In this document: one piece after another, positions 844 to 39,566 of the stretch
Numbering within the stretch: position 1 is the first letter of the stretch
Layout of the letters: the number at the start of each line of letters is the position of its first letter
Assembly (NCBI GenBank): GCA_028708605.1
Contig: JAQVYS010000010.1
Location: 1 to 42,621, forward strand
Direction of reading: 5' to 3'
DNA from: Bacillota bacterium
GTDB lineage: Bacteria > Bacillota > DTU065
DNA: 42,621 nucleotides
Notes under the pieces: generated by a model
What the model was told of the DNA's origin: nothing
Database searches by the model: none
What the model saw: only the letters and a program-made list of their open reading frames with translations
Program-made: the position numbers and the translations under genes

Positions 844-1033
844 ACAAACGCTGCACGAATTTTCTGCAGCTACCCCCTTCCTCTTCAGTGTACTTAATAA
901 TTATTTCTCTTAGAAGTGTATAACTCCTGCTTACATTGTTTGTGTGACAACTGAGAAAGAATTAGGTTACATCAAGAGAAAGTTGTTTTGTTGGAGATTT
1001 TTGGGATTAAAAAAGCTACAAAAACGGAAAAAG

Positions 1034-1062
1034 TTGAGTAGATAAGACTTAAGTGATATATT
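1034..1062 (+). promoter_or_regulatory. Candidate promoter of argS
   Basis: TTGAGT (1034-1039), a 17-base spacer and TATATT (1057-1062) resemble a housekeeping promoter, 66 bases upstream of argS. I see no T-box AGGGTGG-type motif in the 844-1128 gap, so tRNA-responsive attenuation is not supported. Confidence 0.4.
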
Positions 1063-1128
1063 ATTTAGAAGGATAAATAATGAACTGAGAAAATATAGAT
1101 CTAAAGTGTATTTATAAGGAGCGTAATT

Positions 1129-2817
1129 ATGGGTATAGCAAAAGATATTGTGGCGGAATCCATTTATACCGCATTACCACAATTAAGTTTACAAGAGATA
1201 GATGAGCTCTTAGAGGTTCCACCTAACCAGGATTTAGGTGATTATTCTTTTCCCTGTTTTACTTTAGCAAAGAAACTGAAGAAATCCCCTGTACTTATTG
1301 CTAGTGACTTAGCTGAAAAGATGCCAGAAAACAAGCTTTTTGAGAAAATTGATGTTGTTTATGGCTTTGTAAACTTTTCTCTAAATAAAGGCTATCTTGC
1401 GTCCAAACTTTTACCTAAAATCATTTCAGAACATAAAGAGTATGGCAAAAGTGCTGAAGGAGCAGGAAAGACTGTAGTACTAGACTTTTCTTCTCCAAAT
1501 ATAGCCAAGCCATTTAGTGTTGCCCATCTTAGGTCAACGGTTATTGGGCATTCGTTGGCCCGGATTTGGGAGCACATGGGATATAAAGCAGAGAGAGTTA
1601 ATCACCTTGGTGATTGGGGAACTCAGTTTGGTAAGGTTATTGTCGCCTATAAAAAATGGGGCGATGAACCAAGTGAGCATTCCAAAGGCTCAATTAGGCA
1701 TTTGTTAGAGCTTTATGTGCGCTTTCATAAAGAAGCCGAAGACCAACCTGATCTCGATGATGAGGCAAGGCTATGGTTTAAGAAATTAGAAGACGGGGAT
1801 AAAGAAGCGTACTCTCTATGGCAACAGTTTAGAAAGACGAGCTTAGATAATCTCCGAGAAGTATATGAGTTAATGGGCGTTGGCTTTGATCATTATACCG
1901 GAGAAAGCTTTTATAATGATTTAATGCCAAAGGCAATAGAGAAGCTAGAGCCGTTTATGGAGGTTAGTGAAGGCGCCGATATTGTATCCTTGGGTGAGGA
2001 TATGCCTCCTTTTTTGGTACGTAAATCAGACGGCGCGACCTTGTATGGAACAAGGGATCTAACAGCAGCTATCTATCGTTTTGAGACCTTTAACTTTGCA
2101 AAATGCTTGTATGTGGTAGGTGGCGAGCAGGCTCTACACTTTAAGCAGGTTTTTGCTGTACTCAAAAAGCTTGGATACGACTGGGCTGATAGTTGTGAAC
2201 ATGTGCCTTTTGGTCTAATGAGATTTGGAGATATGAAACTATCTACAAGGCAAGGTAATGTAATTTTTTTAGAGGATGTTTTAAATAAGGCTATTGATTT
2301 AACTAAAGAGATTATTGAAGAGAAAAATCCAGACATCGAAAATAAAGATGATGTTGCAAGAATGGTTGGAGTTGGAGCGGTAATCTTCAACGACTTGCGC
2401 AATAACCGCATTAAAACCATTAATTTTGAGTGGGATGATCTTCTTAATTTCCAAGGAGATACAGGCCCTTATATCCAGTACACTCATGCTAGAGCATGTA
2501 GCCTTCTCTCGAAAGCTGAGGAGGTCACAACGGTTAATTTGGAACTATTACAAGAAGTAGAAGAAGAGGTTCTAGTAGCTGAATTAGAGCGTTTTCCTGA
2601 TATTGTAAAGCAAGCAGCTAGAGCTAATGAGCCTTCTACAATCGCAAGATATCTTCTGAGTCTCGCAAGGGATTTTAATAAGTTCTATCAAGCACATCGG
2701 ATTTTAGATGTAGAAGAAGAACTTAAAAAAGCAAGGCTAACCTTAGTCGATGCGATTAGAAAAACTATTGATACAGGACTTTTCCTATTAGGGCTCGAAG
2801 CTCCTGAAAAGATGTAA
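1129..2817 (+). CDS. argS: Arginyl-tRNA synthetase
   Basis: Class I synthetase that charges tRNA-Arg with arginine using ATP. At 562 residues it has family length. The N-terminal additional domain (1-110) is followed by the ATP-binding signature around residues 121-140, SSPNIAKPFSVAHLRST, where the usual HxGH reads S-V-A-H. The family-typical INHLGDWGTQFGK equivalent follows (here VNHLGDWGTQFGK). The KMSK-equivalent loop is MKLSTRQGNV near residue 369; many ArgRS lack the canonical lysine here. The C-terminal DALR anticodon-binding domain ends near ...LFLLGLEAPEKM. AAGGAG lies 8 bases before the ATG. A strong terminator follows directly, so this looks monocistronic. A tRNA-Arg gene lies 360 bases downstream. 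Confidence 0.97.
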   Translation: MGIAKDIVAESIYTALPQLSLQEIDELLEVPPNQDLGDYSFPCFTLAKKLKKSPVLIASDLAEKMPENKLFEKIDVVYGFVNFSLNKGYLASKLLPKIISEHKEYGKSAEGAGKTVVLDFSSPNIAKPFSVAHLRSTVIGHSLARIWEHMGYKAERVNHLGDWGTQFGKVIVAYKKWGDEPSEHSKGSIRHLLELYVRFHKEAEDQPDLDDEARLWFKKLEDGDKEAYSLWQQFRKTSLDNLREVYELMGVGFDHYTGESFYNDLMPKAIEKLEPFMEVSEGADIVSLGEDMPPFLVRKSDGATLYGTRDLTAAIYRFETFNFAKCLYVVGGEQALHFKQVFAVLKKLGYDWADSCEHVPFGLMRFGDMKLSTRQGNVIFLEDVLNKAIDLTKEIIEEKNPDIENKDDVARMVGVGAVIFNDLRNNRIKTINFEWDDLLNFQGDTGPYIQYTHARACSLLSKAEEVTTVNLELLQEVEEEVLVAELERFPDIVKQAARANEPSTIARYLLSLARDFNKFYQAHRILDVEEELKKARLTLVDAIRKTIDTGLFLLGLEAPEKM

Positions 2818-2821
2818 CATG

Positions 2822-2844
2822 GCTCGGCGAAAGCCGAGCTTTTT
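2822..2844 (+). terminator. argS terminator
   Basis: GCTCGGC, GAAA tetraloop, GCCGAGC, then five Ts, beginning 5 bases after the argS stop. Confidence 0.93.
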
Positions 2845-2959
2845 GTAATTTGGAGTAATGTATTTATAGAGGGAAGATATATAAAGTATCTATGGAAAGG
2901 CCTGTATAGAACCTTAGCAGAGAAGTCCTTAGTGTGAAGTTATTGTAGAAAACAAGAAA

Positions 2960-3022
2960 GAGAATAGTTCCCCATGTTATGATTAAGGTGCAAATAATAA
3001 TCGACAGAAGGGAACTACTCTC
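2960..3022. repeat. Inverted repeat next to the transposase remnant
   Basis: GAGAATAGTTCCC (2960-2972) and GGGAACTACTCTC (3010-3022) are inverted copies matching at 12 of 13 positions, separated by 37 bases. The right arm ends at the ATG of the transposase-like fragment. It could be a relic of an insertion-sequence end or a translation-controlling hairpin of the old element. Confidence 0.5.
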
Positions 3023-3142
3023 ATGAACATTATATCGCAACTTCAAGAATTTATCAGCAATAACATCAGCAGCATTTTCGAACAGTGCTTAGAAGGTACT
3101 AGCTTTACTGAATTAGTCGGAGAAGCCCGATATTCTTTACAG
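3023..3142 (+). pseudogene. N-terminal remnant of a transposase (ISLre2/UPF0236-like)
   Basis: An ATG-initiated frame encodes about 40 residues resembling the amino-terminal helix of ISLre2-family (UPF0236) transposases: short hydrophobic-amphipathic helices and a segment EGTSFTELVGEA, like the family's FxxLxxEA-type start. The frame then runs into the tRNA-Arg promoter and stops inside the tRNA gene (TAG at 3206-3208), so the rest of the transposase is missing. The resemblance is from memory of the family; I could not align it. Confidence 0.4.
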
Positions 3143-3165
3143 TGGCCGATTTATTGTGCTATAAT
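3136..3165 (+). promoter_or_regulatory. Promoter of tRNA-Arg
   Basis: TTTACA (3136-3141), an 18-base spacer and a consensus TATAAT (3160-3165) place the transcription start about 5 bases before the mature tRNA 5' end. It lies at the junction with the transposase remnant. Confidence 0.75.
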
Positions 3166-3176
3166 ATTTAAGAAAT

Positions 3177-3253
3177 GGCCCCGTAGCTCAGTAGGATAGA
3201 GCAACGGTTTCCTAAACCGTGTGTCGGACGTTCGAGTCGTCTCGGGGTCACCA
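3177..3253 (+). tRNA. tRNA-Arg (anticodon CCT)
   Basis: A complete 77-base cloverleaf with encoded CCA. The acceptor stem pairs GGCCCCG with CGGGGTC (one G-U), the D arm is GCTC/GAGC, the anticodon arm is ACGGT-TTCCTAA-ACCGT with CCT at positions 34-36, and the T arm is GGACG-TTCGAGT-CGTCT. It reads AGG codons. Confidence 0.96.
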
Positions 3254-3627
3254 TCTTGAATATCAAGGGAGGAGTTGTCAGAGCCTTACACAAAACTTGG
3301 TGAAGGGTTAGGATAACTAAGCTGTATTTTTGTCTGAGGTTTCAAAAATTTAATATGGAATTATTTGAAGCTCTAGAGTAATCTAGGGCTTTTTTACTAC
3401 GCGAAACCCTCTATTGTGCACTAGCAGATAGCAAAAGTTGTGTTGCGAGAATCGATTGGAGGGGTTCGTGTTTAGAAAGTGGCATGTTGTGTGAGTATTC
3501 TAGAAAGTGCAGCCTTTTTTTGTTTTAACAGAAATTCGGAAATAATGAAGCTATGCATATCTAGCAGGGAATAATACCTAGCACAACAAATAATACAGTA
3601 AGACTAATTTACAAAGGATGGAATCAA
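3254..3627. other. Non-coding gap after tRNA-Arg
   Basis: 374 bases. It contains a terminator at 3369-3395 and a seven-T run at 3516-3522 without a convincing stem. No reading frame with a ribosome-binding site is visible. The last 60 bases are AT-rich and presumably hold the promoter of the solute-binding protein gene, but I cannot pick a clear -35/-10 pair. Confidence 0.5.
3369..3395 (+). terminator. Terminator downstream of tRNA-Arg
   Basis: AGCTCTAGA, loop GTAA, TCTAGGGCT (one G-U pair) followed by a T run. It ends a transcript that would extend about 115 bases past the tRNA. Confidence 0.75.
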
Positions 3628-4926
3628 ATGAAAAGGAAATATTTAGTTTCATTAAGCTTACTGTTCTTATTGTCTGTATTTGTATTTTCTAAGACTCTCA
3701 CAGTATGGCTTACAGGGGTAAACAATGAAGTGCTCAACATCTACAAGGATTTAGTTGATGAGAGTTTTACAGCTAAAACCGGAATCGAAGTTAGGTTTAC
3801 TAATTTAAGCTGGGGTGACTTTGAAAACAGGTTCATTTTGGCAGCTGCTTCAGGCGAAGCACCAGATGTTGGTGGCATGGGGCCGTTGTTTGCCCCAGAG
3901 TTAGGCATTAGAGGAGCCGTTATTGACCTCAAAGCAACTTTCGATGACTTTGATGAGGTAACCAAGAATCTTTATCCTGCCGTATTTAGATCTTTAAGTT
4001 ACCAAGGTTCGGTTTTTGGTGTTCACTATGATGCCAACTTTTCAATGACAGGATTCCAAAGAGATGATATTTTGCAGCAACATGGGGTTGGAAGTCTTGA
4101 AACTTGGGAAGAGGTAAGAAGGGCTTTACCAAAACTCCAAGCAAATGGTAGTAATCTATCTTTAGCTTGGCAGTTAAGCACGGATCTTTACGAAGATGCA
4201 AATATGTTCATGTGGCAGCATGGCGGAGATGACTATACTTCAGATCTTAAAGCTTCGGGTTATTATGAGCCAGAAGCGATTAGAGGCTTTACAGAATATG
4301 TTGAACTCTATACAAAATACAACATTGATAGAGCTTCTCCAGTTGTTCAGGCGTTTTCAGATGGTAGCCTCTTCTATTTCATTCAGCAACCACCTTGGTA
4401 TTCTAACCTTTTACTTGCTCATCCGCAGCTCCAAGGCAAATGGAGTATTGTTCAAGTTCCAGGCACATTACGTGATGGGGTTATTCATAGGGAATCATCT
4501 GTTGCGGGCAATGCTTTAAGTATCTTTAAGACGTCCGAAATGAAAGAGGAAGCATGGGACTTTATTAAATGGATAATCTCTGAACCAATTCAGGTTGAGA
4601 TCGCAACACGTACCATAGCATCATCAGGAGGACACTTAGCACTTCCTGCTGATCTTAATGCAATTACTAAAGTAAATCTCCCTGAAAGGGACATTTTAGT
4701 GTACCAAAGAGCACTTGAAGAAGGTACTACTTCTGTTTATGGACTTGTAGCACCAAGACACAGAAGACGTTATCTGCAATTTGCTGCAGAAGAAGCTATT
4801 TTAATGAATGTACCACCAGAAGAAGCATTGATGAAATATGCACAAGAGCATAGTTTTGAGATTCGCAAAAAAGAGACTGAATATGCAAGATTTATTCAAA
4901 GAATGCTAGAAGAACAACGTAAATAA
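3628..4926 (+). CDS. Extracellular solute-binding protein, family 1 (sugar type), paralogue A
   Basis: A 432-residue periplasmic binding protein of the maltose/multiple-sugar class. A signal peptide spans residues 1-21 (MKRKYLVSLSLLFLLSVFVFS) with no lipobox cysteine, so it is likely released into the periplasm. The mature protein starts with the KTLTVWLTG strand and has the family pattern FTAKTGIEV, then APDVGGMGP, W-rich hinge segments and a C-terminal RKKETEYARFIQRM helix. The same features recur in the proteins at 8012-9307 and 32165-33454, so the three are paralogues. No permease or ATPase gene is nearby. It has its own ribosome-binding site (AAAGGAT) and a strong palindromic terminator. 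The ligand cannot be read from sequence. Confidence 0.88.
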   Translation: MKRKYLVSLSLLFLLSVFVFSKTLTVWLTGVNNEVLNIYKDLVDESFTAKTGIEVRFTNLSWGDFENRFILAAASGEAPDVGGMGPLFAPELGIRGAVIDLKATFDDFDEVTKNLYPAVFRSLSYQGSVFGVHYDANFSMTGFQRDDILQQHGVGSLETWEEVRRALPKLQANGSNLSLAWQLSTDLYEDANMFMWQHGGDDYTSDLKASGYYEPEAIRGFTEYVELYTKYNIDRASPVVQAFSDGSLFYFIQQPPWYSNLLLAHPQLQGKWSIVQVPGTLRDGVIHRESSVAGNALSIFKTSEMKEEAWDFIKWIISEPIQVEIATRTIASSGGHLALPADLNAITKVNLPERDILVYQRALEEGTTSVYGLVAPRHRRRYLQFAAEEAILMNVPPEEALMKYAQEHSFEIRKKETEYARFIQRMLEEQRK

Positions 4927-30669: not shown

Positions 30670-32190
30670 TTATTTAATCCAGTCTACGTAATCATTGTAA
30701 AGCTTCTTTGATCTTGCGTTTTTATAAGGGTTCATATAATGGTTAAACTCAAAAACAATAACTTTTTCTACATAGGGTTCAACAGCGAAAAGCTGTTTTT
30801 TTACTAGCTCTAATTCTGCTGGGTGCCAGGTATCAATATCAAAGATCTCTACATCAGCCCACAGTTGTACATCATGTTTTTGACAGGCCTTAAGAAATGC
30901 TCTGTAAAACTTAGAGGCAGCTTCTGGAGTAGAACGTTTCGCACCAACACTATCTTGTGGCCCAAGAATATCGACTTTTACAACCTCTAGAAACTTATCA
31001 AATTTTTCTTCCCACCAAATCGGAGAAGTCCCAGCTTCATAAGATGGCGATAGTAGAATCGGTTTTCCTGGTGTTAGTGATTTTATATGGTTTATCTGCT
31101 CGCTATAGTACCAAGTAGTTAGTGAAAATTTACTAGGGACTAGATCCTTTTCATCGATTTCGTCTGAAAGATACCAGCCATAAAAGGCATTATTTTCGCC
31201 GTAGCGGTTATAAAGCTCAGTTACATCGGCTTTTAGATTATCTAAGACTTTAGTAAGGTGGCTCTTAGATAGGTTAGTCCAATTGTAATTTCGGTTTGAT
31301 AAGGTGCCAATCATAATTGAGATACCCTGTTTATTTGCCTCTGCAAACAGCTCATCTAAAACGTCATACAAAGGACCTGTTTCGTTAGCATACGCAGGTA
31401 CAACTAAGAGATCTAAACCGGCATCTTTCATAGCTTTTAATTCATTTTCCCATGAGCCTTTTGAGTTACGAATGTTAGTGTAATCAAGCTGTAAGAAGCT
31501 TCCGGTAATGGCAGCGTTAGCATGTACTACTCGATCAGGGGTAAGGTCTACAAGTGGTACATTTGAAACTCTAAGTGCAGGCTTGTTTTCAGCTGTTACT
31601 TCAACGTTTCTGATTTCTGCTTTAGAATTAGCTACTCTAATTACCAGAGAGCCTTTATTATACACTCTGTTTTGATCTTCAAATTGCCCCATCTGTTTAC
31701 CGTCTAAATAATAAGTGTAAACCTGATCTTTACAGGTCAAGCGGATATGGTGCCAATTGCCAGGCTTTATTGCTCCGTTGATATTAGCTAGCCACTGATA
31801 GTCATTCCAGTAGCCGTGCCTCCTCATTACGGTTGCTCTGTTTTGATCGATAGCAACTGAGTAGCCAGCATACGTGTCTTGTTCGTGGAGAATCAACATA
31901 ATGCTCCCGTGAGTTCCATATTCATTAACCTTTGCTTCAAAGCTGAGATCAAAGTCCTCAAAGTTGTAAAGAATTTCTACTCGAGAATAAGCAACTTTAG
32001 TTGAAAGGAAACCATCATCTGTAAACTGTAGAGTCTCGAGTCCATCTAGGCTAAGCCAATTCACCTCAGCTGTAGCCTTGTTGATCTGAGGAACCTTAAA
32101 TGCAGATGCGGGTTCAGGAAAGACCAAAAAGAGTGCTAGTAAGAGACACAGTATAGTGATTATCCTATAGTTTACTGATAAATCTAGCAT
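30670..32190 (-). CDS. Secreted lectin-like domain plus DUF4434 glycosidase-like barrel
   Basis: 506 residues. A signal peptide (about 1-30, ending ASA) is followed by a LamG-like beta-sandwich (about 40-205; GFLSTKVAYSRVEILYNFEDF, GNWHHIRLTCKDQVYTYYLDGKQMG, SLVIRVANSKAEIRNVEV). Residues about 222-506 resemble DUF4434: ITGSFLQLDYTNIRN...WENELKAMKDAGLDLLVV, then GWYLSDEID, ILLSPSY, VDILGPQDSVG and LWADVEIFD. The barrel-end acidic residues (SDEID, DVEIF) could be catalytic, as in GH5-like enzymes. Start at ATG overlaps the upstream solute-binding gene by 26 bases, so the two are translationally coupled. Inference: processes a glycan whose product is bound by the partner. Confidence 0.78.
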   Translation of the reverse strand: MLDLSVNYRIITILCLLLALFLVFPEPASAFKVPQINKATAEVNWLSLDGLETLQFTDDGFLSTKVAYSRVEILYNFEDFDLSFEAKVNEYGTHGSIMLILHEQDTYAGYSVAIDQNRATVMRRHGYWNDYQWLANINGAIKPGNWHHIRLTCKDQVYTYYLDGKQMGQFEDQNRVYNKGSLVIRVANSKAEIRNVEVTAENKPALRVSNVPLVDLTPDRVVHANAAITGSFLQLDYTNIRNSKGSWENELKAMKDAGLDLLVVPAYANETGPLYDVLDELFAEANKQGISIMIGTLSNRNYNWTNLSKSHLTKVLDNLKADVTELYNRYGENNAFYGWYLSDEIDEKDLVPSKFSLTTWYYSEQINHIKSLTPGKPILLSPSYEAGTSPIWWEEKFDKFLEVVKVDILGPQDSVGAKRSTPEAASKFYRAFLKACQKHDVQLWADVEIFDIDTWHPAELELVKKQLFAVEPYVEKVIVFEFNHYMNPYKNARSKKLYNDYVDWIK

Positions 32191-33454
32191 ATTCGCTTTG
32201 TTTCCTTTCCAACTCAGAATTCATCTCTCGTGCTGCTTCCAAAATAGCCTCCATTGGATCACCTTCGTGAAGAACTACCTTAGCGCATGCATTATTGATA
32301 AATCTATGAGTTACAGTTTCAGGGGCGAGAGCGTAGGCCGGAGCGATACTGTGTTGAGCTTGTTTCATATAAGCCTCTAAGTGATCTTCGGGGAGAGGAA
32401 TGTTAGCGATTGCATGGATGTTTGCTGGAATAACAATACTTCCAGGTATTTTTTCAGGAACTACAGTGGCGAATTCTGATTGAGTCTCTGCAGAAAGCCA
32501 CCATTTGAGCCACTTAAAGGCATTGTCGATCTGTTTACCTGTCTTAAACATGACAAATGTGTTACCACCGATATATGCAGCATGATTAATTGAACCATCT
32601 TCTCTAATAGTACCAGGGACAACTGTCACTCCCCACTTGCCATGCAACTCTGGGGTTGCCAGGAGAAACGACGAATACCACCAGTTTGTAAGCTGTAAGA
32701 GAGGTATCTCGCCTGTTTTAAAGCCCATAAAAGAGTTTACAGCTTTAGGTACGTTGTGTTTTGTATAAAGTTCACAAAACTCAATAAACCCTGCAATAGC
32801 TTCTGGTGAATCTAGACCAGATCTAGTGCGGTTTTCTGTATACCAGTCCCCGCCATGTTGCCAGATAAGCATTGAGACGTCAGCGTAAACCATCGTACCT
32901 GAACCATCTGAAAATCCAAAAGCTGTAGAAAAGTTCAGGTTATTTGCTTGTAGCTTTGGAAGCATTTGGTAGAGTTCGTCCCAGGTTTTAGGGACAGTCA
33001 TTCCCATCTCTGTTAGGATATCTAACCTATAGCCTAAAGGATATAAAGCGATATCTACAGGAAGCCCAAAGTCGGTACCGTTATAATCAAAAGAACGCAT
33101 TAGTCCGGGGTACATTTCTCGCTTAATTTCTAGATATTCTTCACCAAAACGTTCTTTTAGATCGATTGCAGCTCCGCGAATGCCAAGATCCGCAGGCCCT
33201 AAAGAGCCTGTAATACCGATATCTGGAGTATCCCCAGAAGCTGCGGCAAGAAGATACTTGCTTTCTTTCCCAACACTAGGGATTGTGTAAATTTTTACTT
33301 CAATTCCGGTTCTTGCGGTAAATTGTTCATCTGTAATTTGTTGCATGATTTTCGTGCGTTCCACTGATAGTGGCGACCAAATAGTAACTGGATGGGCATA
33401 TGCAGCTGAGGTAAAGATGAGAAAAACAGCAATAAACAACAAACCTTTTTTCAT
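32165..33454 (-). CDS. Extracellular solute-binding protein, family 1, paralogue C
   Basis: 429 residues from ATG 33454, with GGAGG upstream; an in-frame ATG at 33469 overlaps that ribosome-binding site. The signal peptide ends AAYA without a lipobox. It shares the family landmarks with the proteins at 3628 and 8012: EQFTARTGIEVKIY, DTPDIGITGSLGP, ADLGIRGAAIDLKE, TWDELYQMLPKLQANN, HGKWGVTVVPGT and the C-terminal LERKQSEYARFISKL. It differs in having a coupled downstream gene (DUF4434). No ABC permease or ATPase gene adjoins. It probably binds an oligosaccharide released by the partner enzyme. Confidence 0.88.
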   Translation of the reverse strand: MKKGLLFIAVFLIFTSAAYAHPVTIWSPLSVERTKIMQQITDEQFTARTGIEVKIYTIPSVGKESKYLLAAASGDTPDIGITGSLGPADLGIRGAAIDLKERFGEEYLEIKREMYPGLMRSFDYNGTDFGLPVDIALYPLGYRLDILTEMGMTVPKTWDELYQMLPKLQANNLNFSTAFGFSDGSGTMVYADVSMLIWQHGGDWYTENRTRSGLDSPEAIAGFIEFCELYTKHNVPKAVNSFMGFKTGEIPLLQLTNWWYSSFLLATPELHGKWGVTVVPGTIREDGSINHAAYIGGNTFVMFKTGKQIDNAFKWLKWWLSAETQSEFATVVPEKIPGSIVIPANIHAIANIPLPEDHLEAYMKQAQHSIAPAYALAPETVTHRFINNACAKVVLHEGDPMEAILEAAREMNSELERKQSEYARFISKL

Positions 33455-33571
33455 CTTGTAATCCTCCATTCAAGAAAATTAACAAAATCAACAGATTTAC
33501 CTATAAAAAAACCCTTCTTGGAAGAGAAATTTATTCCTTCGTAAGGATTTTGTTCTTTAACGGTAAAATTT

Positions 33572-33618: not shown

Positions 33619-36183
33619 TTAAAATTTAATTACAGGGCTGATCATAACTCTATTTAGCCGCGGGTAGTACATCGCCTGTATGCCAAGATCTAAAGTGGCT
33701 GCGCCATACATCAGGGCTGTAGTGTTTGCAAACTCCAGGCCAGCTACGATTTCCCAATTTGTATCTCCTATTAAAAGAGCTACATTTGGACTAACAGTCA
33801 TTTTTTCAGACCACATAGTAGGAGATGCTCCTCTTATCCACATAGGTCTTGCGAAAATCCAATTTAAGGAAGACTCTAAAAATAGAACGCTTTGCCCTAG
33901 CGGGTAATTTTCTATTGATAAATAGCCAGCTTTGTGGTGGTTAAAGGAAACTCTTAGTTGGTAATCTAAATTTCGGCTCGCTTTTAAGCTGTGGCCATAA
34001 CCAAGACTATACTCGTAGCTAGAAGCATCTTTTAGCCCTAGATCAAAGCGTGTTCTTCCAAAACAGAAGTTGTTGCCACTGATTTTTTCTCGGCCCCAAG
34101 GTAGATTCACTTTAGCGTGTAAAGAAAGGACACCTTTAGTGTTTGCAGAGGTAGTTAGATTCAGAGAGTTTTTGCCAAGAGGGATCTTGCCAGAGTAGAT
34201 AGTGTTAAGTGTGAAACTTTTTAAGTCAGACTCTAGACTAACTGAGAGGCTATGCAGAGGATTTAGAAAATAATCAAAGGTAGCATATAGATTGTGGTTG
34301 GCTTGCGCCAATTCTGCAAAGGGGTTAAAGTTGTAGCCAAAAGAATAGAGAAAACTTTGGAGAGGGTCAGATCCCATAGCACTTGCTCCAAGTACAGATG
34401 GTATCCAGAAAGTTGGCTTAAGCCAGTTTAGACCACTGTATTTTTTTAAAGTATAGCCTTCCTCTGATAAAAGTTCATCAAGTGTTGGGTAGGTGCTTCT
34501 TTCAGGCAGCGTTTCCTTTTGCAAAGGCATCCACGAATTCTCTTCGCATAGGTTATGCACACCAAGTTTTAGTCCCTGATCGGTATAGGTTATAAAGGCG
34601 AGCTGCCTTGGCATTGAAGGATTACTTATAGGCTTAAATGCTCCATAATGATTAACTACGACAGGAGCAACTTTAGCTGTCTTTAGATCGAGGACCCAAA
34701 TCCCGTAGCGGCCACTTCGGTTAGATTGGAAGTAAAGTTTTGTCTCATCACTGCTTAAAACCGGATAGGTATCACTGTAGTGGTCAGTTGTAAGAAAGGT
34801 AATTTTGTTACCGATAATGAGACCTAAGTCGACAAATCCGCCTTCCCTCCAAAGGGATACATAGACTTCATCGTGGCTTGAAACTGTAAATTGGAGGATC
34901 TCTTCGCCAGGCTTTGATAGATAGACTAAAGTTAGATTACCTGACAGGTCTCTTTTGTAGATAGCATTACCTTCTGGGTGCTTCTGGCTTAGATAATAAA
35001 TGCCACTACTTGTAGAAAGCGGGGCAGATGCCCTTTCCCCTTTTATAATTGGTTCACTTTTATGTTGCGAGTATCTATAGATATTGAAGAAGGAATTTCC
35101 CTTTTGATCTAGCTCTAACGCAGTATATAAAAGCTTACCAGAGTTATCTTTACTGATATTTCCATAAATATTAGGAATGTATTTTACTAGTTCTTCTTTT
35201 TCGGTTTCGAGGTTAATGCGGTATATCCCACCAGAGTCTCCGCTCTTTGCATAATAAAAGTACTCTTGGTCAAAAAAGCCAGGGTAGATAGTTTGGCCTG
35301 AGTTTTGAAGGATCTTCCCTTCTGGCTCTAAGTTAGGTAAATTATAGTTTTGTCTTAGCCACACATACCACTCATCTGTCAGGTCTTTGTAACTCTTTCC
35401 TGTTAGATCCCTTAAAGCCGAATCATATTTTGGTACAAAAAACCTGCCAGGATTATTAACAAAGATCTCTTGCAATGCTAAAGGTGCATTTTCACTGTAG
35501 TTTTGAGATAAAAACTCTAAGAAATTCCAGCCATAGAGATAAGGAAAACCTGCTAGGTCATAATAGTCTAAGTCGTAATTTCCAAGTGTGAATCTTGGAT
35601 CAGGTAGATGATCTGCATCTATTGCCGCATCCAGAATCATGGGATAGATACTATCAGATCCGCGTCCTATCTTTTGATACTTTGTTTCGTTAACGACTGC
35701 AAGGCCTTCAATGTTGGCCGTAGGTGAGGACCAGATGGGATAAAAAAGTGGATACCTTCCAAGGATCCGAGAGAGGTAATAGTTGGTCTTGGTTGTCATC
35801 TCAATATGATAGAGGTGAGTGCCTTCATGCCACAAAAGAGTTTCAAACCAATCGTTGTTAGGTCCAAGCCCACCTAAAAGTGTGTCTCCTGGAAAAACGG
35901 GGAAGAAGGTAATTGATGGATAAAAAACATTAGTTGTGTAGCCGTTTGGAAGGTCAATCTTATCTTCAATAATAAAGTGGCTTTTACCATTTATTTGCAA
36001 GTCCATCTCGTCTTTAAGCTCAGCCATTATTTTTTCTGATTGGACCATCAACTTACTTGCGAGATTTTCATATCCTTTAGGAAAGTGAACATAAAGATAA
36101 GGCCCTTCAAGGGTGTAATAATCTGCACAAACAGGTAGTACTATTAATAAACTTGTAATTACAAGCAATAAGATTTTTTTCAT
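33619..36183 (-). CDS. Secreted gluzincin metallopeptidase with beta-propeller and C-terminal beta-barrel
   Basis: 854 residues from ATG 36183 (a TTG at 36198 is a weaker alternative; neither has a good ribosome-binding site). Signal peptide 1-20. Residues about 20-290 form a peptidase MA-like domain with zinc motif HEGTH (H119, E120, H123) and third ligand E159 in NIEGLAVVNE. Residues about 295-560 have repeated WD40/TolB-like propeller blades (ILQNSGQTIYPGF, YYAKSGDSGGIYRI, SSDETKLYFQSNRSGRYGIW). From about 600 the sequence is amphipathic strands and ends MYYPRLNRVMISPVIKF, with a terminal Phe typical of BAM-dependent barrels. Inferred: an outer-membrane-anchored protease with the catalytic and propeller parts on one face. 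Confidence 0.75.
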   Translation of the reverse strand: MKKILLLVITSLLIVLPVCADYYTLEGPYLYVHFPKGYENLASKLMVQSEKIMAELKDEMDLQINGKSHFIIEDKIDLPNGYTTNVFYPSITFFPVFPGDTLLGGLGPNNDWFETLLWHEGTHLYHIEMTTKTNYYLSRILGRYPLFYPIWSSPTANIEGLAVVNETKYQKIGRGSDSIYPMILDAAIDADHLPDPRFTLGNYDLDYYDLAGFPYLYGWNFLEFLSQNYSENAPLALQEIFVNNPGRFFVPKYDSALRDLTGKSYKDLTDEWYVWLRQNYNLPNLEPEGKILQNSGQTIYPGFFDQEYFYYAKSGDSGGIYRINLETEKEELVKYIPNIYGNISKDNSGKLLYTALELDQKGNSFFNIYRYSQHKSEPIIKGERASAPLSTSSGIYYLSQKHPEGNAIYKRDLSGNLTLVYLSKPGEEILQFTVSSHDEVYVSLWREGGFVDLGLIIGNKITFLTTDHYSDTYPVLSSDETKLYFQSNRSGRYGIWVLDLKTAKVAPVVVNHYGAFKPISNPSMPRQLAFITYTDQGLKLGVHNLCEENSWMPLQKETLPERSTYPTLDELLSEEGYTLKKYSGLNWLKPTFWIPSVLGASAMGSDPLQSFLYSFGYNFNPFAELAQANHNLYATFDYFLNPLHSLSVSLESDLKSFTLNTIYSGKIPLGKNSLNLTTSANTKGVLSLHAKVNLPWGREKISGNNFCFGRTRFDLGLKDASSYEYSLGYGHSLKASRNLDYQLRVSFNHHKAGYLSIENYPLGQSVLFLESSLNWIFARPMWIRGASPTMWSEKMTVSPNVALLIGDTNWEIVAGLEFANTTALMYGAATLDLGIQAMYYPRLNRVMISPVIKF

Positions 36184-38648: not shown

Positions 38649-39566
38649 ATGCGAGAAGAACTTTACAAACAAAAGCGCTGGTCAAGTCGGAACAAAACAC
38701 TTTACATGGAAGTTGGAGAAGAAAAAATTTATGTTCCAAAGGCTCTTCCAGGTAGTAATATCGAGCCCGGGATCTATTTTGGAGAAGGTTTAGTAGCTTT
38801 AAAAAGGCTTGAAGAAGAATCAATTCAGTTAATCTTTGCAGATCCACCATACTATGGTAAACAGAAAGCGTTTGGACGAAGTGTACCCAATGTTTGGGAG
38901 GATTATTCTTCGTGGACTCTAGCGTGGTTAAAAGAGGCTTATAGAGTTTTAAAAAATACTGGTTCAATTTATGTCTGCTGCGATTGGACTTATTCAGGAA
39001 AGATCCAAGACATTCTTGAAGAAGCAGGATTTACAATCATCAATCGTATAACCTGGAAAAGAGATAAAGGCCGTGGTGCCGCCAAAAACTGGAAAAATAA
39101 TATGGAAGATATTTGGTTTGCGGTAAAAGATGAAAACGAGTATTACTTTAATGTTGAGAGCGTAAAGATCAAGAAAAAGGTAATTGCTCCTTACAGAGAT
39201 TCTACCGGCAAGCCAAAGGACTGGGTAGAGGAAGATGGTAATAGATACCGTCTAACTTCGCCACCGAATATTTGGATCGACATCACTGTGCCGTTTTGGT
39301 CAATGGCAGAGAACACTCCCCATCCGACACAAAAACCAGAAAAGCTTGTAGACAGGTGCCTAAGACCTGTACTACAGCCAGGGGATATTGTCGTAGATCC
39401 ATTTCTTGGTTCTGGAACGACAGCTATTGTAGCCGATAGAATAGGTGCTAAGTGTATTGGTGTAGAATTAGATCCTGATTATGTAAGCCTAGCTATGAAA
39501 CGTTGGGATCTGCGCCACGAAATTGCAGCTAAATCTAATCTGGACTATAATATGGAAATAGACTAA
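38649..39566 (+). CDS. Beta-class DNA methyltransferase (orphan, probable adenine-N6)
   Basis: 305 residues. The catalytic motif IV ADPPYYG (D65-Y68) comes before the SAM-binding motif I DPFLGSGTT (about residue 250), the order of beta-class enzymes; HPTQKPEKLVDRCLRP sits between them. DPPY is usual for N6-adenine and some N4-cytosine enzymes. A W-rich central stretch (WKNNMEDIWFAVKDENEYYF) is the probable target-recognition region. No restriction endonuclease gene adjoins. It is 14 bases from prs with its own AGGAGG, so it sits inside a housekeeping operon, consistent with a regulatory orphan methylase. The recognition sequence is unknown. Confidence 0.88.
   Translation: MREELYKQKRWSSRNKTLYMEVGEEKIYVPKALPGSNIEPGIYFGEGLVALKRLEEESIQLIFADPPYYGKQKAFGRSVPNVWEDYSSWTLAWLKEAYRVLKNTGSIYVCCDWTYSGKIQDILEEAGFTIINRITWKRDKGRGAAKNWKNNMEDIWFAVKDENEYYFNVESVKIKKKVIAPYRDSTGKPKDWVEEDGNRYRLTSPPNIWIDITVPFWSMAENTPHPTQKPEKLVDRCLRPVLQPGDIVVDPFLGSGTTAIVADRIGAKCIGVELDPDYVSLAMKRWDLRHEIAAKSNLDYNMEID

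Follow-up and report, generated by a model that had tools for sequence, protein, structure and literature searches.

A putative outer-membrane-anchored metallopeptidase with a TolB-like propeller and an apparently shortened Omp85-derived barrel in a Bacillota genome

The window, by which we mean the whole stretch of 42,621 nucleotides that was analysed, carries on its minus strand a gene of 854 codons (33619..36183) that runs from an ATG at 36183 to a TAA at 33619-33621. This assignment is based on the open reading frame together with its orthologues; a plus-strand reading of 33619-36183 was ruled out, because stops occur throughout and no ORF is found. Full-length orthologues of 51-59% identity were recovered by genome search from three genomes (G001, G002 and G004), which indicates that the ORF is more than a product of chance, and an orthologue fragment lies at a contig edge in a fourth (G003). 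The gene was found in 5 of the 5 searched genomes of the window's family, f1 (in one as a fragment), and the nearest named records are Bacillota MAGs (Clostridia bacterium DTU065, UBA4881 and SL1-B34.1). A single-sequence search of the PDB with the window protein gave one insignificant match only, so that profiles were needed, and none of the NCBIfam models reached its cut-off on the six proteins of the wider family that were scanned. The full-chain structure prediction that the initial annotation had proposed as a check was made with AlphaFold2 from an alignment of 76 homologues, and it produced a confident model of three domains (mean pLDDT 88.4, pTM 0.90).

Two co-directional genes lie downstream, encoding an ABC solute-binding protein (32165-33469) and a DUF4434 protein with a 3-keto-disaccharide-hydrolase/laminin-G-like domain (30670-32190). 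We considered an operon with these genes, and did not take them as partners because neither was seen next to the orthologues of G002 and G004; in G001, a similar solute-binding protein, not seen in the other two genomes, is located beside the orthologue. The glmU gene is the divergent neighbour in 4 of the 4 complete loci; since core genes make up this neighbourhood, the arrangement was not counted as functional evidence. Promoter- and terminator-like sites at the locus were no more frequent than in shuffled sequences. Elsewhere in the window, a DNA methyltransferase (38649-39566; N6_N4_Mtase, E=6.5e-46) is located between prs-like and pth-like core genes, with no obvious restriction partner alongside.

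The protein begins with the sequence MKKILLLVITSLLIVLPVCA, a signal peptide that by inspection is of the Sec type (residues 1-20, ...LPVCA/DYY; 36124..36183, minus strand) and forms a helix at residues 2-14 in the model. A lipoprotein anchor was dismissed by eye, since the cleavage pattern is the ordinary ...VCA-DYY. The signal peptide is followed by a mostly helical, peptidase-MA-like domain (residues 21-282; 35338..36123, minus strand) with pLDDT mostly >80 in the AlphaFold2 model. The HEGTH motif and downstream Glu that had been noticed in this N-terminal domain are indeed present. HEGTH (residues 119-123; 35815..35829, minus strand) would supply two putative zinc-binding His residues and the catalytic Glu; Glu159 (35707..35709, minus strand), within the motif EGxAxxxE, is the putative third zinc ligand of the gluzincin type; and Tyr215 (35539..35541, minus strand) is a possible transition-state tyrosine by analogy with other gluzincins. 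All five residues (H119, E120, H123, E159 and Y215) are kept in 76/76 aligned homologues, whose identity is mostly ~20%, and E166 is kept in 74/76. The homologue loci were found partly via the motif HE..H, so that H119, E120 and H123 were partly selected for, whereas E159, E166 and Y215 are free of this selection; a chance HEXXH was rejected on the invariance in 76/76, which for E159 and Y215 lies outside the search motif. The window protein therefore contains the HEXXH motif and downstream Glu by which the gluzincins of the Peptidase MA clan are recognised. It matched neither Peptidase_MA_2 (PF13485) nor any other curated MA-family model in the Pfam scan; among 46 homologues, 10 matched Peptidase_MA_2 at E<=0.01, and some homologues match Peptidase_MA_2, BSP, M1 or M48. 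That these residues persist in sequences with so little identity overall argues for catalysis, and we infer that the N-terminal domain is a putative zinc-dependent, catalytic peptidase. In the literature searched, the invariance of the gluzincin residues in all 76 homologues appears to be undescribed.

The second domain is a TolB-like beta-propeller (residues 298-545; 34549..35292, minus strand), predicted as continuous beta strands with pLDDT mostly >90. The repeated blades described in the initial annotation were borne out by a PD40 repeat (PF07676) at residues 470-497 that exceeds the Pfam cut-off (E=2.8e-5) and by a Foldseek search of the PDB with the full model, whose top matches are mostly TolB via the propeller (E ~1e-7 to 1e-6); the PDB match of the family profile for this part is likewise closest to TolB. 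PD40 was matched by 35 of the 46 homologues in Pfam. The TolB model TIGR02800 matches the window protein at E=1e-6 with 28 bits, under the equivalog cut-off of 343 for the TolB of Tol-Pal.

A linker (residues 546-591; 34411..34548, minus strand) carries the signature Y582...K589-P590-x-x-W593-x-P595, which reaches into the first strand of the following domain. In the 76-row alignment, Y582 and P590 reach a conservation of 90% or more, as does P595 in the 46-row alignment, and the linker aligns with the equivalent segment of Omp85-type members at E=1.3e-5 (hhalign). The remainder of the chain is a predicted beta-barrel (residues 592-854; 33622..34410, minus strand), for which AlphaFold2, run on the full chain and on the C-terminus alone, gives about 15-16 strands within 263 residues, as compared with the 16-stranded Omp85 barrel. 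The C-terminal 280 residues folded alone reached a pLDDT of 79 and a pTM of 0.71; model confidence is low around residues 690-715 in the full chain and around 737-755 in the isolated domain. The strands ending VMISPVIKF on which the initial annotation had based its proposal of an outer-membrane-type barrel are present, and the barrel itself gained support from Foldseek: the isolated domain matched nearly only outer-membrane barrels (FusA, FhaC, BamA, TamA, PelB and porins), weakly and with poor superposition (best E 0.006), and no soluble sandwich, the fold that had been named as counting against the proposal, occurs by description among the top 50 matches. The last strand (33622..33651, minus strand) ends in Phe854 and resembles a beta-signal, both in the model and by the statistics of the family: Phe is the last residue in 50/76 homologues and in 24/421 of the remaining ORFs at these loci (Fisher p=4e-31, kinship ignored), and homologue C-termini are hydrophobic at positions -1, -5, -7 and -9.

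What is the origin of this barrel? No match to Omp85 (PF01103) was found in the window protein by Pfam, and no POTRA (PF07244) was detected either in it or among the families matched by the 46 homologues; with the identical library, the genome's own BamA does give POTRA matches. Omp85 was matched by 6/46 homologues, however, and at the level of the family the relationship is recognisable: the C-terminal part of the whole-family profile matches BamA (E=9e-11) and TamA (E=6e-7) in the PDB, the C-terminal family profile matches the genome's own BamA at E=7.5e-11, and the consensus C-terminus of the homologues is Omp85-like (LRGY...G...ExRxPL...FxDxG...GxEL...F), most homologues having the LRGY/F-type motif. 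These matches point to a POTRA-less Omp85 barrel as the ancestor of the C-terminus, an origin that is unnoticed in the initial annotation. The window protein itself lacks the (V/L)RG(Y/F) motif of the Omp85 superfamily and aligns well with canonical members over the first ~62 columns only. Gly753-Tyr754 (33922..33927, minus strand) is, according to the alignments, a remnant of the RGY/RGF motif; in 4/4 members of f1 the Arg is absent (AGY, DGY, FGF and IGY) and the Gly-Tyr/Phe pair is kept. For this reason, we filed the protein as a divergent descendant and not as a canonical Omp85 protein. In the window's branch, the stretch that starts at the linker tyrosine and closes the chain is 273 residues long, as compared with ~340-400 residues in most members from Proteobacteria and Myxobacteria; several members from other Bacillota, Thermotogota and Campylobacterota have short C-termini (250-320 residues) as well. 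The window's family thus appears to possess a shortened Omp85-derived barrel that has lost the RGY Arg, a form apparently undescribed in the literature searched, and it seems that the Omp85 barrel has been reduced in these diderm Bacillota.

To judge from its genes, the window's genome is diderm. A genome without BamA had been named as a second ground for abandoning the barrel, and this situation did not arise: one BamA is encoded, with two POTRA matches and an Omp85 barrel (Pfam E=6.7e-52). The window protein accordingly combines a signal peptide (by inspection) and a C-terminal aromatic beta-signal with the presence of BamA in its genome, as is characteristic of outer-membrane proteins inserted by BAM. 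Across the phylum, an Omp85 match was found in 29/29 genomes with a family match >100 bits (14 families), versus 101/399 genomes overall (hypergeometric p=1.6e-19 among the 399 genomes, kinship ignored); the best of these Omp85 matches are nearly all BamA-sized ORFs, and a few could be the family's own barrels. In the window's genome, the locus L118 (15-13655) is an outer-membrane biogenesis cluster with TamB-like, BamA, Skp-like and LpxD-like ORFs, two small outer-membrane-like proteins, and LptF/G-, LptD-, LptC- and LptA-like ORFs, in which BamA was identified by the profile library and the remaining ORFs were named by reading.

In one Bacillota family, f20, the module occurs in two pieces. 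An upstream gene of 558-618 codons, with Peptidase_MA_2 and PD40 matches, aligns with the family at E=2e-37 (hhalign), and directly after it follows a separate barrel ORF of ~380-430 codons with an Omp85 match and the LRGY motif. Seven such split loci were taken (L119, L120 at 924-3730, and L121-L125), in six of which the ORFs were paired by script; in L120 the two genes occupy 924-2612 and about 2612-3730. Measured from the last base of the upstream stop codon, a candidate start of the barrel gene in these six lies at -8 to +13 bases, and twice the two genes overlap as ATGA. Peptidase_MA_2 (PF13485) was matched by 3/3 split peptidase genes scanned, those of L121 and L125 exceeding its cut-off, and the split barrel genes that were scanned showed no POTRA. 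Genomes of f20 also carry the fused form (G290, L105 fused and L119 split; G138, L094 fused and L120 split). We regard the adjacency of the split genes as an independent line of genomic evidence for a joint function of peptidase-propeller and barrel. The encoding of this module by two adjacent genes appears to be undescribed in the literature searched. A CheB-like ORF (VLVVDDSAFMRQ) lies near most split loci of f20.

The family profile detected homologues far beyond the Bacillota: in Myxococcota, Gamma- and Betaproteobacteria, Acidobacteriota, Aminicenantes, Edwardsbacteria, Schekmanbacteria and Nitrospirota, and further in Spirochaetota, Bdellovibrionota, Campylobacterota, Thermotogota, Halanaerobiaceae and other Bacillota, mostly in MAGs and with taxa taken from the record titles; L059 holds a homologue from Photobacterium and L079 one from Nannocystis. 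On these sequences, the three-part layout is widespread over many phyla and is not peculiar to diderm Firmicutes; the search for the same domain order that the initial annotation had suggested did find it in other Bacillota. In a tree of the peptidase-propeller part, the window's family is placed on a long branch (1.82) within a supported group of 14 rows, all of them from Bacillota or the window's phylum. In genome G070 (L006/L109), a related protein with the sequence IIHEFTHAV lies inside an unusually long open frame, 1691 codons, whose length may be an effect of GC content alone.

How might such a protein work? We start from the parts supported by sequence and prediction, namely the three domains, the invariant putative catalytic residues, the homology of the family barrel to Omp85 and the diderm genome, and add to them, by inference, catalysis, zinc, periplasmic topology, dependence on BamA, gating and substrates. 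We consider it reasonably probable that the gene encodes a metallopeptidase anchored in the outer membrane, whose enzyme domain and propeller are periplasmic. After export of the chain through Sec, BamA would insert the C-terminal barrel, a reduced and POTRA-less Omp85 descendant, into the outer membrane; gluzincin domain and TolB-like propeller would remain on the periplasmic side. The propeller may dock on or gate the peptidase, as do propellers in other propeller-containing peptidases, and the probable role would be quality control or maturation, by cutting envelope proteins that are misfolded or still maturing close to the outer membrane. In BAM-inserted barrels with an even number of strands, both ends are periplasmic. 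In PlpD, the one fusion of an enzyme to an Omp85 barrel that has been put to the test, the patatin domain stays periplasmic, contrary to the long-held assumption of surface export (PMC11116518). By analogy, the even-strand geometry and this precedent favour a periplasmic placement of enzyme and propeller; the surface location, which the initial annotation had named beside a periplasmic one, is not supported.

Several other explanations were weighed against a periplasmic, membrane-anchored peptidase. The barrel, or the separate Omp85 barrel of the two-gene form, might instead export the peptidase-propeller for extracellular work, in the manner of two-partner secretion, whose layout a dedicated Omp85 partner directly downstream does resemble; FhaC is also among the weak Foldseek matches. 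Two-partner transporters take up their substrate by POTRA, however, whereas the split barrel genes scanned have none, the shortened barrel of the window protein would need to pass a folded propeller, and PlpD, long thought to export its enzyme, was shown not to do so (PMC11116518). We therefore regard a surface protease as unlikely. An outer-membrane assembly factor, in effect a BamA-BamB-like fusion whose N-terminal domain would serve for binding and not for catalysis, would agree with the homology of the family barrel to Omp85, with the TolB-like propeller and with what was proposed for WD40-Omp85 in the main text of the 2014 paper (PMC4104836). We hold this to be rather unlikely, in that a scaffold would hardly be expected to keep five candidate active-site residues invariant over many phyla at ~20% identity, POTRA domains were not found, and the window's family is without the RGY Arg that most relatives keep.

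That the C-terminal segment is a soluble beta domain, and the whole protein a periplasmic peptidase, is very improbable. The weak Foldseek E-values of the isolated domain and its lack of a Pfam match would fit such a domain, but the top Foldseek matches are nearly all outer-membrane barrels with no soluble sandwich in the top 50, and the statistics of terminal Phe and of strand alternation, the co-occurrence with Omp85 in the phylum and the homology to BamA through intermediates all oppose it. Beyond the window, we tentatively suggest, as a possibility that falls short of being probable, that peptidase-MA, propeller and POTRA-less Omp85 barrel together form an old and widespread machine of envelope proteolysis in diderms, fused in most lineages and encoded by two adjacent genes in others. 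If this is true, the 'WD40-Omp85' proteins would be outer-membrane metallopeptidases and not assembly factors, and the window's family would represent the form in which the barrel is reduced to an anchor.

Among known systems, TolB is the best PDB match of the window protein and shares the propeller fold; it differs in being a soluble component of Tol-Pal without gluzincin domain or barrel. BamA and TamA are homologous in the barrel at the level of the family, whereas peptidase and propeller here take the place of POTRA, and LRGY is degraded in the window's branch. Peptidase_MA_2 (PF13485) shares the HEXXH...E gluzincin-type domain, but the window protein does not match the model. Patatin-Omp85 (PlpD of Pseudomonas aeruginosa) likewise has an enzyme domain ahead of an Omp85-type barrel; in contrast to the window protein, its enzyme is a patatin lipase and not a gluzincin, it has one POTRA, and it has no propeller. 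The name of the Omp85 subfamily 'Metallo' hints at a metalloprotease-Omp85 fusion, but in the main text of PMC4104836 it is defined by PF00149, which according to Pfam is a calcineurin-like phosphoesterase and not a HEXXH peptidase. No described peptidase-propeller-Omp85 protein was found in the openly accessible literature. The closest precedent is WD40-Omp85, presented by Heinz and Lithgow in the main text of their 2014 paper as a TolB-like propeller with an Omp85 barrel and without POTRA, and proposed there as reminiscent of a BamA-BamB fusion (PMC4104836); in 2024, the WD40-like subfamily was still among those poorly characterised (PMC11116518). The wider family shares with it the N-terminal TolB-like propeller, the lack of POTRA and the C-terminal Omp85-type barrel, and, on the main text of the 2014 paper, it is likely to be the same protein set. 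The differences are the shorter barrel without the RGY Arg in the window's branch and the peptidase, a word that is absent from that main text. The initial annotation had regarded the layout as unusual and as the best candidate for an undescribed system in the window; this view does not survive the occurrence of the same domain order in many phyla and the cataloguing of propeller-Omp85 proteins in 2014 under the name 'WD40-Omp85' (PMC4104836, main text). The window protein is a divergent relative of a catalogued, little-studied family and not a new kind of system, and the invariant metallopeptidase site and the two-gene form set a hypothesis of outer-membrane-anchored proteolysis against the idea of a 'BamA-BamB fusion'.
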